Source: an uncultured Clostridia bacterium (GTDB taxonomy: Bacteria; Bacillota; Clostridia; Christensenellales; UBA1242). From it: 47,317 nt of DNA. Location of the stretch: the NCBI GenBank assembly GCA_947624105.1, contig CANQIX010000005.1, forward strand, positions 1 through 47,317. Reading direction: 5' to 3'. Made by a program: the position numbers and the translations under genes. The notes under the pieces were generated by a model. It was not told the origin of the DNA. It made no database searches and saw only the letters and a program-made list of their open reading frames with translations. Shown here piece by piece: positions 5,166 through 7,207 of this stretch; position 1 is the stretch's first letter; each line of letters begins with the position of its first letter.

Positions 5166-6152
5166 TTAGTCTAACCCAAGCGCCTTACAAGTTTTGGCAA
5201 GAGTTTGCCTTGCAACGCGTCTTGCACGTTTTGCGCCGTCTGTTGTTATTGCGTCCAGCATCTCACTGCTAAGCCCCTTATATCGCGTTTGAATTTCGCT
5301 TAAAAGTTCACAAACTCTGTCTGCAACCTCTCTCTTAAATTCCCCGTATCCTTTTCCGCTAAATCGCCTTTCAATCGACGCTATTTCTTCGCCGGTAATT
5401 TTGGCTAAGATGCTGATTAAATTTGAAATCCCCGGCTGATTTTCTTCGTCAAAGCGAACGCAGTTAAGGTTGTCGGTAACGGCGGACATAATCTTTTTTC
5501 TTGCAACATTTATATCTTCCATCAAAAAGATCGTTCCTCTGTTATCTCCGCTGTCCGACTTATTCATTTTTTCAAGAGGATTTTGCAAGTTTAGAATTTT
5601 GTTCCCGATTGGCGCAATATACACATCTGGCATAACAAAGGTTTCGCCATACCTTTTGTTGAACCTCTCCGCCAAATCGCGCGTAAGTTCAACGTGCTGT
5701 TGTTGGTCCTTTCCAACCGGAACGATGTTGGTGTTATACAGCAAAATATCTCCCACCATAAGCGTTGGATAGACAAACAGCCCTGTATCCACTCCTTCCT
5801 TTCCAAGGCCCTGTGATTTGTGTTTAAACTGCGTCATTCTGCTAAGTTCTCCCATTTTGGTTTGGAAGGTCATAATAAATCCCATAGTTCCGTGCTCCAA
5901 AACATCACTTTGTTTAAAGATAATCGTCTTTTTTGGATCAACCCCGCAAGCAAGATACATTGCAATGCAGTTTTCCACCGATTCTTTTAATAGTTTTGGG
6001 TCTTTTGGACTTGTAATTGCGTGCAAATCCGCAATAAAAATATAACTTTTGCATTTGTCCTGTCTATCAACAAAATTTTTGATAGCGCCTAAATAATTTC
6101 CTAATGTCAAATTTCCGCTAGGTCTAACCCCAGTAAGCATAACTTTTTTCAT
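5166..6152 (-). CDS. trpS: Tryptophanyl-tRNA synthetase
   Basis: Class I aminoacyl-tRNA synthetase that charges tRNA-Trp. The 328-residue length is normal for bacterial TrpS. The ATP-binding HIGH-equivalent is PSGNLTLGNYLGA (residues 11-23), and the KMSKS loop reads KMNKSDSGD near residue 197, with Ser replaced by Asn. Other family segments are FIADLHAIT, SDVLEHGTMGFIM and VPVGKDQQQHVELTRD (substrate pocket). AAGGAG lies 8 nt upstream of the ATG. Expression appears controlled by a leader-peptide attenuator at 6167-6392 with tandem Trp codons. That is unusual, since trpS in Bacillota is normally under a T-box, and no T-box consensus is present here. Confidence 0.97.
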   Translation of the reverse strand: MKKVMLTGVRPSGNLTLGNYLGAIKNFVDRQDKCKSYIFIADLHAITSPKDPKLLKESVENCIAMYLACGVDPKKTIIFKQSDVLEHGTMGFIMTFQTKMGELSRMTQFKHKSQGLGKEGVDTGLFVYPTLMVGDILLYNTNIVPVGKDQQQHVELTRDLAERFNKRYGETFVMPDVYIAPIGNKILNLQNPLEKMNKSDSGDNRGTIFLMEDINVARKKIMSAVTDNLNCVRFDEENQPGISNLISILAKITGEEIASIERRFSGKGYGEFKREVADRVCELLSEIQTRYKGLSSEMLDAITTDGAKRARRVARQTLAKTCKALGLD

Positions 6153-6166
6153 AATAAAATCTCCTT

Positions 6167-6213
6167 AAAATAAAAATTACCCGTTGATATATCTTCCAAA
6201 ACATACCAACGGG
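6167..6213 (-). terminator. trpS attenuator terminator hairpin
   Basis: On the minus strand CCCGTTG (6207-6213) pairs perfectly with CAACGGG (6180-6186). The stem extends through GGTATG against TATAT-type partners, and the T-rich run TAATTTTTATTTT (6167-6179) follows just before the trpS ribosome site. It can stop transcription in the leader before trpS. Confidence 0.8.
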
Positions 6214-6288
6214 CTTAGATTTTATATGAAATAATTTAATCCATTTATATGTTTTGTGGTGCTGTAAAAGAAGCATTCACAAAACATA
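6197..6288 (-). promoter_or_regulatory. trpS leader alternative pairing segments 1, 2 and 3
   Basis: In RNA sense, segment 1 TATGTTTTGTG (6278-6288) pairs over 11 bp with segment 2 CACAAAACATA (6248-6258). Segment 2 can instead pair over 9 bp with segment 3 TATGTTTTG (6197-6205), which lies inside the terminator hairpin. Leader-peptide codons 2-6 (6324-6337) also pair over 14 bp, with one G-U, with 6235-6248, extending the 1:2 stem. This gives the classic protector, antiterminator and terminator layout. The switching logic is inferred. Confidence 0.65.
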
Positions 6289-6307
6289 GGTCTTGCAAAC
6301 GCTTAAA

Positions 6308-6340
6308 CTATACGCGCCACCAAATAAATGAATTAAACAT
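6308..6340 (-). CDS. trpS leader peptide MFNSFIWWRV with tandem Trp codons
   Basis: A 10-codon open frame in the trpS leader: ATG at 6338-6340, two consecutive TGG codons at 6317-6322, and TAG at 6308-6310. It has a good ribosome site (AAGGAG, 6348-6353, 7 nt before the ATG) and lies about 17 nt after the predicted transcription start. Tryptophan is the rarest residue, so two in a row in ten, directly upstream of trpS and of mutually exclusive hairpins, is strong evidence for a regulatory leader peptide. Inferred role: when charged tRNA-Trp is scarce, ribosomes stall at WW, codons 2-6 are covered, the protector stem is weakened and the antiterminator wins, so trpS is transcribed. When Trp is plentiful, the terminator at 6180-6213 forms. 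The peptide itself probably has no other job. Confidence 0.82.
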   Translation of the reverse strand: MFNSFIWWRV

Positions 6341-6363
6341 AATTTTTCTCCTTTTATGCAGAC

Positions 6364-6392
6364 ATTTTAAAACATATTTTCAAAAATGTCAA
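6364..6392 (-). promoter_or_regulatory. Promoter of the trpS leader
   Basis: Minus strand TTGACA (6387-6392), 17-bp spacer, TAAAAT (6364-6369), with the start expected near 6357. It begins 2 bp after the stop codon of the upstream acidic-protein gene, so trpS has its own transcript about 205 nt upstream of its ATG. Confidence 0.8.
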
Positions 6393-6394
6393 CA

Positions 6395-7207
6395 CTATTC
6401 TTCTGTTTCTTCTTCGTCGTTAGGCTCTTCTTGTTCTTCCTCTTCCGTTCCAAAGCCCTCATAAAAACCATACACAAGGGTTGTAAGTTCATCAACAGAG
6501 TGTCTTATTGCTTTCAACTTTTTTGCAACGTAACTTAAACCAACAATAAGTCCGTTTATCACGGTTAAGTCTTTAAGTTCGCACGCCCTTATTATAGAAT
6601 TTACAACAAACTCCGCATCGTCAACTTCCTTTTTCTTTTCAAACTTGAGTTGTGATAGAATCGAAACGCAAACTTTTTTAATCTCCTCACAAAGTTCGCT
6701 AAGCCCTGGAAGTTCTGGTTCTTCTTCCTCTTCCTCCACCTTTGTTTCCTTTTGATGCCCGGCAATATCTTCTTCAGTTATCCTTACATCGACATCAAAA
6801 TATTTTGCGATAGCATCTCTAAAAGGCTTAATAACAAGGTTCAAAAAGTTTTGCATTGGCGTAGCATTTTCGTCTTTGAAGTATGTTTCAAGGAATTTGG
6901 TCAAATTAAGTTTTCCGCTGTCGATATCATTGAATATACTCACAGTAAGAGCAAGCCTTTGCTTGTCGTCTTTAGGCAATTTAACTTTTGTTTTTTCTGT
7001 TGCGTTTTCTGGAAATGCCGCGCTAAAACCTGCGTCAGCATCATATTCGTCAAGCGCGTCAGCAAGATATGTCATAATAGCATCACTCTTTATGATGTCC
7101 TGCATCAAGAGGTCAAGTTTTTGAGTTAAGTCTAAAAACCTGCCGCCAAGAAGTTCGTTACATCTAAGCACAAATCTTTCAACAGAAAGTAGATCAAGTT
7201 CGTCCAT
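6395..7207 (-). CDS. Acidic protein of unknown function
   Basis: 270 residues that I do not recognise. There is no signal peptide or membrane segment, so it is probably cytoplasmic. It looks largely helical. Two acid-rich linkers stand out: a run of consecutive Glu near residue 158 separating an N-terminal half (about 1-150) from a C-terminal helical half (about 165-255), and an extremely acidic tail (EEEEQEEPNDEEETEE). It has a TTGATT-16-TAAAAT promoter (7229-7256) and an AGGAGGG ribosome site. It is divergent from the DUF4364 gene and lies upstream of trpS in the same direction, with no terminator between. The highly charged tail could mediate binding to a basic partner; that is speculation. 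Confidence 0.75.
   Translation of the reverse strand: MDELDLLSVERFVLRCNELLGGRFLDLTQKLDLLMQDIIKSDAIMTYLADALDEYDADAGFSAAFPENATEKTKVKLPKDDKQRLALTVSIFNDIDSGKLNLTKFLETYFKDENATPMQNFLNLVIKPFRDAIAKYFDVDVRITEEDIAGHQKETKVEEEEEEPELPGLSELCEEIKKVCVSILSQLKFEKKKEVDDAEFVVNSIIRACELKDLTVINGLIVGLSYVAKKLKAIRHSVDELTTLVYGFYEGFGTEEEEQEEPNDEEETEE

Follow-up and report, generated by a model that had tools for sequence, protein, structure and literature searches.

A probable ribosome-mediated attenuator of trpS in small-genome gut Clostridia and the apparent recoding of its leader codons

Results

A candidate attenuator upstream of trpS

Immediately upstream of a trpS gene in an uncultured Clostridia bacterium lies an RNA element that we regard, with considerable confidence, as a ribosome-mediated transcription attenuator turning trpS on when charged tRNA-Trp is short. 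It occupies positions 6392-6153 on the minus strand of the window (the whole 47,317-nucleotide stretch of DNA analysed here) and comprises a promoter-like site, a leader frame, competing stems and an intrinsic terminator (Table 1). Its sequence, conservation, covariation and gene context are observed directly, and the finding extends beyond trpS to copies of the same scaffold in front of other genes. The window belongs to a genome of 0.96 Mb in 50 contigs that is 98% complete.

Table 1 Features of the trpS leader region in the window
Feature	Position	Strand	Basis
Promoter-like site, TTGACA (6392-6387), 17 nt, TAAAAT (6369-6364)	6364-6392	minus	11/12 consensus positions; consensus match only
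Shine-Dalgarno AAGGAG of leader frame	6348-6353	minus	Sequence; similar word before the leader in relatives too
Leader frame MFNSFIWWRV*, 10 codons, ATG start	6308-6340	minus	TGG TGG 6322-6317; stop TAG 6310-6308
Leader codons 2-6 as RNA arm, predicted OFF lock without ribosome	6324-6337	minus	Pairs with 6248-6235; helix 1, 11/19 covarying
Arm over Trp/Arg codons	6314-6320	minus	Pairs with 6262-6256, consensus register, one mismatch here; helix 2
Segment 1, 5′ arm of hairpin past leader stop	6290-6304	minus	Minimum free energy (MFE) fold; helix 3
Segment 2	6271-6288	minus	Partner is segment 1 (6285-6271) or, in the protector role, segment 3 (6288-6278)
Segment 3	6248-6258	minus	Pairs with segment 2 (OFF) or segment 4 (ON)
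Complement of leader codons 2-6	6235-6248	minus	Sequence; helix 1 covariation
Possible anti-RBS sequence AUAAAAUCU	6217-6225	minus	Complementary to 6162-6154; in MFE fold
Intrinsic terminator	6179-6214	minus	5′ arm holds segment 4 (6205-6197); T-run 6176-6167; helices 4 and 5
trpS ribosome-binding site (RBS) AAGGAG and spacer	6154-6166	minus	Sequence; own-versus-swapped anti-RBS permutation test
trpS, tryptophan--tRNA ligase	5166-6152	minus	TIGR00233, 341.6 bits against a cut-off of 176.75

A preliminary description, made from the sequence alone, had reported the promoter, the AAGGAG motif, the WW frame, pairings of 11, 9 and 14 bp, and the terminator with its T-run, all of which lie where it had placed them. 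The pairings that it had set against one another, between leader codons and downstream RNA and between antiterminator and terminator, are likewise present: codons 2-6 (6337-6324) pair with 6248-6235 over 14 bp including one G-U, and the antiterminator joins 6256-6248 to 6205-6197 over 9 bp. The 11-bp pairing that it had called a hairpin (6288-6278 with 6258-6248) exists but spans a 19-nt loop, and a 15-bp hairpin on the same 5′ arm (6304-6290 with 6285-6271), just past the leader stop and part of the MFE fold, had been overlooked. This oversight explains the claim of an unusual geometry, in which segment 1 would begin some 28 nt beyond the Trp codons and so depart from E. coli; the overlooked hairpin starts 12 nt past the second Trp codon, and once it is counted in, the element would have the classical parity, ON when the ribosome is stalled at Trp and OFF when it is at the stop.

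The region folds to a minimum free energy of -63.7 kcal/mol; 200 dinucleotide shuffles averaged -36.46 (sd 3.98), and none of them was as low (z -6.84). Among the 36 short ATG frames (6-20 amino acids) with a Shine-Dalgarno-like word on both strands of the whole window, MFNSFIWWRV* alone has two or more Trp codons. The Rfam library includes the trp leader family. It gave no match at gathering score in the 47317-base window, and two matches in 6100-6450 far below their gathering scores, neither of them a trp leader. T-box RNA had no match in the window, nor any at E up to 1 in 6100-6450. On these searches, a T-box or another known RNA family was rejected as the identity of the element. T-box control, expected to be the usual state of trpS in Bacillota, was not encountered in related genomes either: 0 of 20 loci of this order had a T-box upstream of trpS at the Rfam threshold (flanks of up to 1.5 kb; three loci from the window's genus).

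The window genome has a second trpS (G000:C20:13743-14723, L002; 35% identity) that lacks such a leader, and the attenuator account leaves unexplained why this extra copy is kept. We did not find trpA in the window genome, nor in any of 28 scaffold-carrier genomes searched, several of them incomplete (G1044 lies outside this set).

Conservation and spread

The trpS of the window was found at E ≤ 1e-60 in 9 of 112 genomes of its genus, and all nine carry the leader, reading MFNSFIWWRV (window), MFNSFIWWRW (two genomes), MFSSFAWWRK, MFSSFIWWRW, MFSTFIWWRW, MVNSFILWIWRL and MFSSFIWWRKK (two). In the two MFSSFIWWRKK genomes trpS is interrupted by another ORF with a lipoprotein-like N-terminus and without a Pfam match. 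Three loci combine an intact leader with a damaged trpS: L054:229-2118 and L055, where another ORF lies inside the gene, and L162:1717-2179, where the reading frame breaks off in the first third of the gene.

A scan of genome_contigs with a trpS alignment supplied the best 80 of 143 loci, and a covariance model of the nine genus leaders (R1) was run on 51 of these 80. It gave a plus-strand match upstream of trpS or trpB-trpS in all 19 Bacillota loci of this trpS group (16 placed by the tree described below, 3 partial ones by 72-83% identity); in L065 and L085 the leader heads a trpB-trpS operon. The wider searches used stricter filters, so their counts are lower bounds: R1 matched at least 5 of 396 genomes of the order, with one match rejected; model R2 at least 11 of 112 genomes of the genus; and model R3 at least 27 of 309 genomes (12 of 42 genera) of the window's family and at least 1 of 391 in a class sample, this being the window's own genome. 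Family f20 had a match in at least 2 of 41 genomes, all in one genus. Besides the 27 of 309 genomes from the window's family, the carriers seen belong to a single genus in a second family of the order or are two MAGs (L061 and L063) that correspond to none of the genomes searched. A three-segment pattern drawn from the same loci occurs in 22 of the 309 family genomes, 21 of them R3 carriers (G1000 has the segment-pattern match only); read backwards as a control, it occurs in none of the 309.

Removal of duplicate records left 32 distinct loci, some of them near-identical (L066/L068, L093/L122). L171 (52 bits) was kept among these rows despite having no standard start codon and a small ORF as its gene: L171:342-492 is a divergent scaffold copy with the frame ..FKLWRWQ*. 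L140 (G357), a weak R1 match in the order, was dropped, no leader frame or matching stems being seen, and R1 and R2 matches on the strand opposite a true match were discarded as mirror images of near-palindromic stems.

Covariation of the stems

Across the 32 loci, 29 of 53 stem pairs carry changes on both sides, against a mean of 10.8 in shuffled and 10-16 in slid controls (0 of 500 shuffles); these counts lean towards the structure because the alignments were fitted to it, and related rows are counted repeatedly. Overall, 92.8% of cells are paired, and 79 cells are changed on both sides, compared with 16-23 in slid controls. An alignment of 23 loci gave 20 of 53 such pairs (slid controls 4-8; 0 of 500 shuffles).

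By helix, the 32-locus counts are 11 of 19 pairs for the leader codons (helix 1), 5 of 7 for the Trp/Arg codons (helix 2), 5 of 12 for hairpin 1:2 (helix 3, with 95.8% of cells paired), 8 of 9 for the terminator (helix 4) and 0 of 6 for its inner helix 5. The alternative pairings vary little because they are nearly invariant; joint changes are seen between segments 2 and 3 in three loci (L065, L150 and L170) and between segments 3 and 4 in one (L061). Where the leader codons have been rewritten, the leader-codon stem appears to have changed along with them: in L062, codons 3-6 are altered together with their 3′ complement, and L151 shows a matching change. The preliminary description had proposed a Trp-codon leader peptide with transcription attenuation and pointed to relatives for a conserved WW frame and covarying stems. 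The relatives agree: besides the covariation, each of the 26 leaders ahead of trpS, trpB or trpB-trpS has two or more Trp codons, in tandem in 24 and as W-x-W in L066 and L068.

Modelled switching by the leader ribosome

In the proposed mechanism, a ribosome stalled at the tandem Trp codons would cover the leader codons and let hairpin 1:2 fold; segment 3, left free, would pair with segment 4 in the 5′ arm of the terminator, permitting read-through into trpS. With Trp in supply, the ribosome would sit at the stop codon and cover the base of segment 1, so that segment 2 captures segment 3 and the terminator forms. On a leader without a ribosome, the leader codons are predicted to tie up the segment 3 region, keeping the switch mostly OFF.

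We infer leader translation, stalling and read-through with the help of folding in which the ribosome footprint was masked and transcripts ended just after segment 4, a choice that favours a kinetic reading. Under these constraints, the mean modelled probability of pairing 3:4, P(3:4), over 32 loci was 0.91 when the A site held the first regulatory codon and 0.85 when it held the second, but 0.09 with the ribosome at the stop and 0.19 with no ribosome. In constrained folding only, 30 of 32 loci (all except L170 and L139) had a codon-1 value more than 0.3 above the stop value, and 28 of 32 (all except L090, L138, L170 and L139) had one more than 0.3 above the ribosome-free value. Split by class, the modelled codon-1 value averaged 0.96 in the 28 Trp rows and 0.62 in the 3 His rows, and was 0.44 in the single Cys row.

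For the window itself, P(3:4) at codon 1, codon 2, stop and no ribosome was 0.99, 0.99, 0.50 and 0.01 (0.86, 0.86, 0.44 and 0.01 in the 32-locus run). Its stop state depended on the footprint assumed: 8, 10, 12, 14 and 16 nt gave 0.98, 0.91, 0.50, 0.07 and 0.21, the standard footprint giving the 0.50 that corresponds to half OFF. Any stalled codon from 2 to 10 turns the window ON in the model, so specificity would come solely from which codon stalls. The modelled direction agrees with the earlier proposal that a stalled ribosome masks codons 2-6 and permits the antiterminator, but the leader-codon stem would act mainly as an OFF lock in the ribosome-free state. Equilibrium folding of the full-length RNA favoured the terminator in every state in 23 of 23 loci tested, with no contrast between states; since the terminator wins throughout at full length, the switch must be kinetic.

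A possible translational lock

Lying between the terminator and segment 3, the stretch 6225-6217 is complementary to the trpS binding site (6162-6154), and a helix formed there may act as a further lock, on translation. In 30 of 32 loci (L150 and L170 have no segments placed), anti-RBS:RBS pairs from the same locus averaged -7.33 kcal/mol, against -4.82 for swapped pairs (0 of 5000 permutations), a test inflated by the relatedness of the rows. Its rows include L162, in which trpS is broken and the start mis-picked, and L139 and L171, which have almost no anti-RBS stretch. Modelled opening of the binding site rose from 0.30 to 0.51 when 3:4 was kept, increasing in 20 of 28 loci (32 rows less L139, L171, L162 and L066). 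A second gate at the binding site is plausible but unproven; on these models the element may be a double gate, acting on both transcription and translation.

Other genes and other codons behind the same scaffold

The first gene behind the element is trpS in 19 of the 32 loci (broken in L093, L122 and L162), trpB followed by trpS in 2 (L065, L085) and trpB in 5 (L137, L138, L164, L165, L167); of the other six loci, four have an M20 hydrolase, one a cysteine-synthase-like gene and one a small ORF. TrpB scored above its curated cut-off in 6 of 6 proteins, L138's being outside those scored. That trpB stands behind the switch in some carriers and trpA was not found suggests that these bacteria salvage indole from their neighbours.

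Codon identity mostly seems to follow the downstream gene, with Trp codons before trpS, trpB and trpB-trpS and what seem to be His or Cys refittings of the same scaffold before other genes. His-His precedes ArgE-like M20 hydrolases in three loci, L151 (MFINYVLWHHS*), L150 (MFIMRRHHRF*) and L170 (MFKSTMLWHHQR*), that is, in 3 of the 4 M20 cases; the fourth, L139 (MINRFNWWQIR*), has WW and runs against a perfect codon-gene rule. L168 (MFNSFICCCC*) has four Cys codons before a gene of the cysteine-synthase family, whose protein falls below the curated cut-offs (cysKM 293.6 of 344.15 bits, cysK 278 of 350.95 bits). Its leader keeps the start MFNSFI, and WWRx to CCCC is the sole alteration. R2, built without these loci, found L151 at 119.6 bits and L150 at 63.4 bits; R3, which held those two, found L168 at 118 bits and L170 at 88.7 bits, neither being in the model. 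The leader MVYSFAWWHHN* at L061:2798-2977, before trpS, contains both Trp-Trp and His-His and could be a two-amino-acid intermediate.

We think it reasonably probable that one ancestral attenuator RNA of small-genome gut Clostridia has served as a codon-programmable module that spread between genes and had its codons swapped from Trp to His to Cys, the switching RNA staying unchanged.

Lineage of trpS and leaders in Alphaproteobacteria

A TrpRS tree of 57 rows (50 of the 80 loci, the window, and 6 other TrpRS of the order or of the window genome; L113, which has internal stops, and partial and many distant rows were left out) placed 17 Bacillota rows including the window (94/84) as sister to 18 rows of gut and termite Alphaproteobacteria (89/88). 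The joint clade has support of 100/100 and a long branch, the two inner supports being moderate, and it is separate both from the TrpRS usual in the order and from the window genome's second TrpRS. Transfer of trpS between gut Alphaproteobacteria and Clostridia, in either direction, is likely from this topology.

R1 had no significant match in the 20 alphaproteobacterial loci searched (L089 came without upstream DNA). Upstream of trpS, these bacteria have a different WW frame in 10 loci, yet another in 1 (L088), a single-Trp frame in 5 and none that we could see in 3, where trpS comes after another ORF. In the ten (L069, L070, L071, L078, L079, L080, L083, L084, L086, L091), the WW frame lies about 129-145 bases upstream of the trpS match; such a frame, for example MKTQIAFCSFTWWL*, has its start no more than about 10 bases from a -10-like box. 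Judged by eye, its codons TGG TGG CTG TAG could supply the 5′ arm of a small hairpin, with a short T-rich tract behind it in most loci, and the stretch TGGTGGCTGTA is identical in 10 of 10 aligned loci. This is possibly a minimal, nearly leaderless attenuator. In L067, L072, L074, L077 and L082 the frame ends in RWCL*, and its TGGTGTTTGTAA complements TACAAACAC adjoining the trpS ribosome-binding site; inspected by eye, this group is a possible translational attenuator with a single Trp codon.

Discussion

Two other accounts of the trpS element itself have to be weighed against a ribosome-mediated transcription attenuator. It might be constitutive, or a riboswitch for a tRNA or metabolite, either T-box-like or of a new type, and the short frame would then be incidental. 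The RNA is indeed highly structured, its leader nucleotides are conserved partly through pairing, and the full-length model favours the terminator whatever the ribosome does. The Rfam and T-box searches speak against it, as does the persistence of an open frame with its regulatory codons through rewriting (MFHRNMWWRL in L062, LWIWRL in L066 and L068), and codon identity mostly tracks the downstream gene; we consider this account very improbable. Hardly more credible is a mainly translational attenuator, with the ribosome state setting access to the trpS binding site and the hairpin with its T-run being a minor terminator. The better binding of own anti-RBS:RBS pairs and the modelled opening of the site would suit it. 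Yet the terminator is the helix that covaries best, with a T-run behind it; the anti-RBS pairing is worth -0.6 kcal/mol in L066 and L068 and is absent in L139 and L171; 8 of 28 loci do not open; and related rows inflate the permutation test.

The recoding faces a stronger challenge. The His and Cys versions could be chance codon runs in scaffold copies that sense nothing, or something else, which would leave the Trp attenuator as the sole finding. There are three His loci and one Cys locus; the predicted M20 hydrolases have no assigned substrates, one of them (L139) sits behind WW, and the L168 protein is under both curated cut-offs. The modelled switch is also weaker in these rows: P(3:4) at the first regulatory codon is 0.98, 0.75 and 0.12 in the His rows and 0.44 in the Cys row, and at the second 0.46, 0.07 and 0.07, and 0.36. 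Against this, each His or Cys locus was picked up with a model built without it, L168 differs from a Trp leader in the regulatory codons alone, and segments 2 and 3 change together in both L150 and L170. R3 also found no second genome in the class sample under its stricter filters, and the backward pattern matched nothing in the family. Chance runs thus seem to us unlikely, if a good deal less so than either alternative for the trpS element, and we favour recoding of one attenuator.

Attenuators have usually been described as a one-off solution for each operon. The homologous RNAs described here appear, through their codon content alone, to respond to as many as three amino acids, and such recoding would be natural evidence that attenuators can evolve by codon change. 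Codon exchange in a reporter makes this question directly testable. In reduced gut bacteria, the attenuator could also be read as a sign of amino-acid limitation.

The attenuators of E. coli trp and of Salmonella and E. coli his have tandem cognate codons in a short leader frame, alternative pairings and an intrinsic terminator, and are OFF without translation. The present element shares with them the tandem codons, a hairpin just after the frame, the alternative pairings and the terminator. It differs in having a 14-bp pairing between the leader codons themselves and the switch region downstream, and in that trpS or trpB is controlled and no full trp operon; no ancestry shared with those attenuators is detectable, as Rfam gave no match. 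T-box RNAs answer uncharged tRNA and often control tRNA-ligase genes in Bacillota. Unlike them (RF00230), the element described here would sense through codons, and the window has no T-box match.

The nearest parallels by gene are in Streptomyces, where Vecchione and Sello reportedly described a regulated auxiliary trpS1 in S. coelicolor. As far as the accessible parts of the sources go, a candidate attenuator lies before trpS2 of S. avermitilis (PMC1262725) and a trpL2-trpS attenuator is described in S. lividans (PMC8079986). Both have, like ours, a Trp-codon leader and attenuator before trpS, and we saw WW frames upstream of actinobacterial trpS in L116, L118, L120, L121, L123 and L124. The phylum, the trpS clade and the RNA are different; R1, run on L116 and L118 among these, had no match up to E 10 in either, and in the portions of the literature available we found the same scaffold nowhere reported before trpB, cysK or M20 genes. 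Leader-peptide attenuation in Bacillota also has precedents in Listeria Rli60, a ribosome-mediated attenuator of the ilv operon (PMC5864092), and in the leucine-rich attenuator of the S. aureus ilv operon (PMC5794164); in the parts of these reports available to us, both concern branched-chain amino acids at a single locus, with no codon-swapped family. A study of leader genes, likewise available in part, gives a weak spacing peak for Firmicutes (PMC4833913). Among the matches listed in our searches, which covered the subscription literature thinly, neither this scaffold nor an attenuator family with swapped codons was described. The kind of regulation is thus known, and what appears new, as far as we searched, is the element itself, its leader-codon stem, the set of genes behind it and, above all, the recoding.
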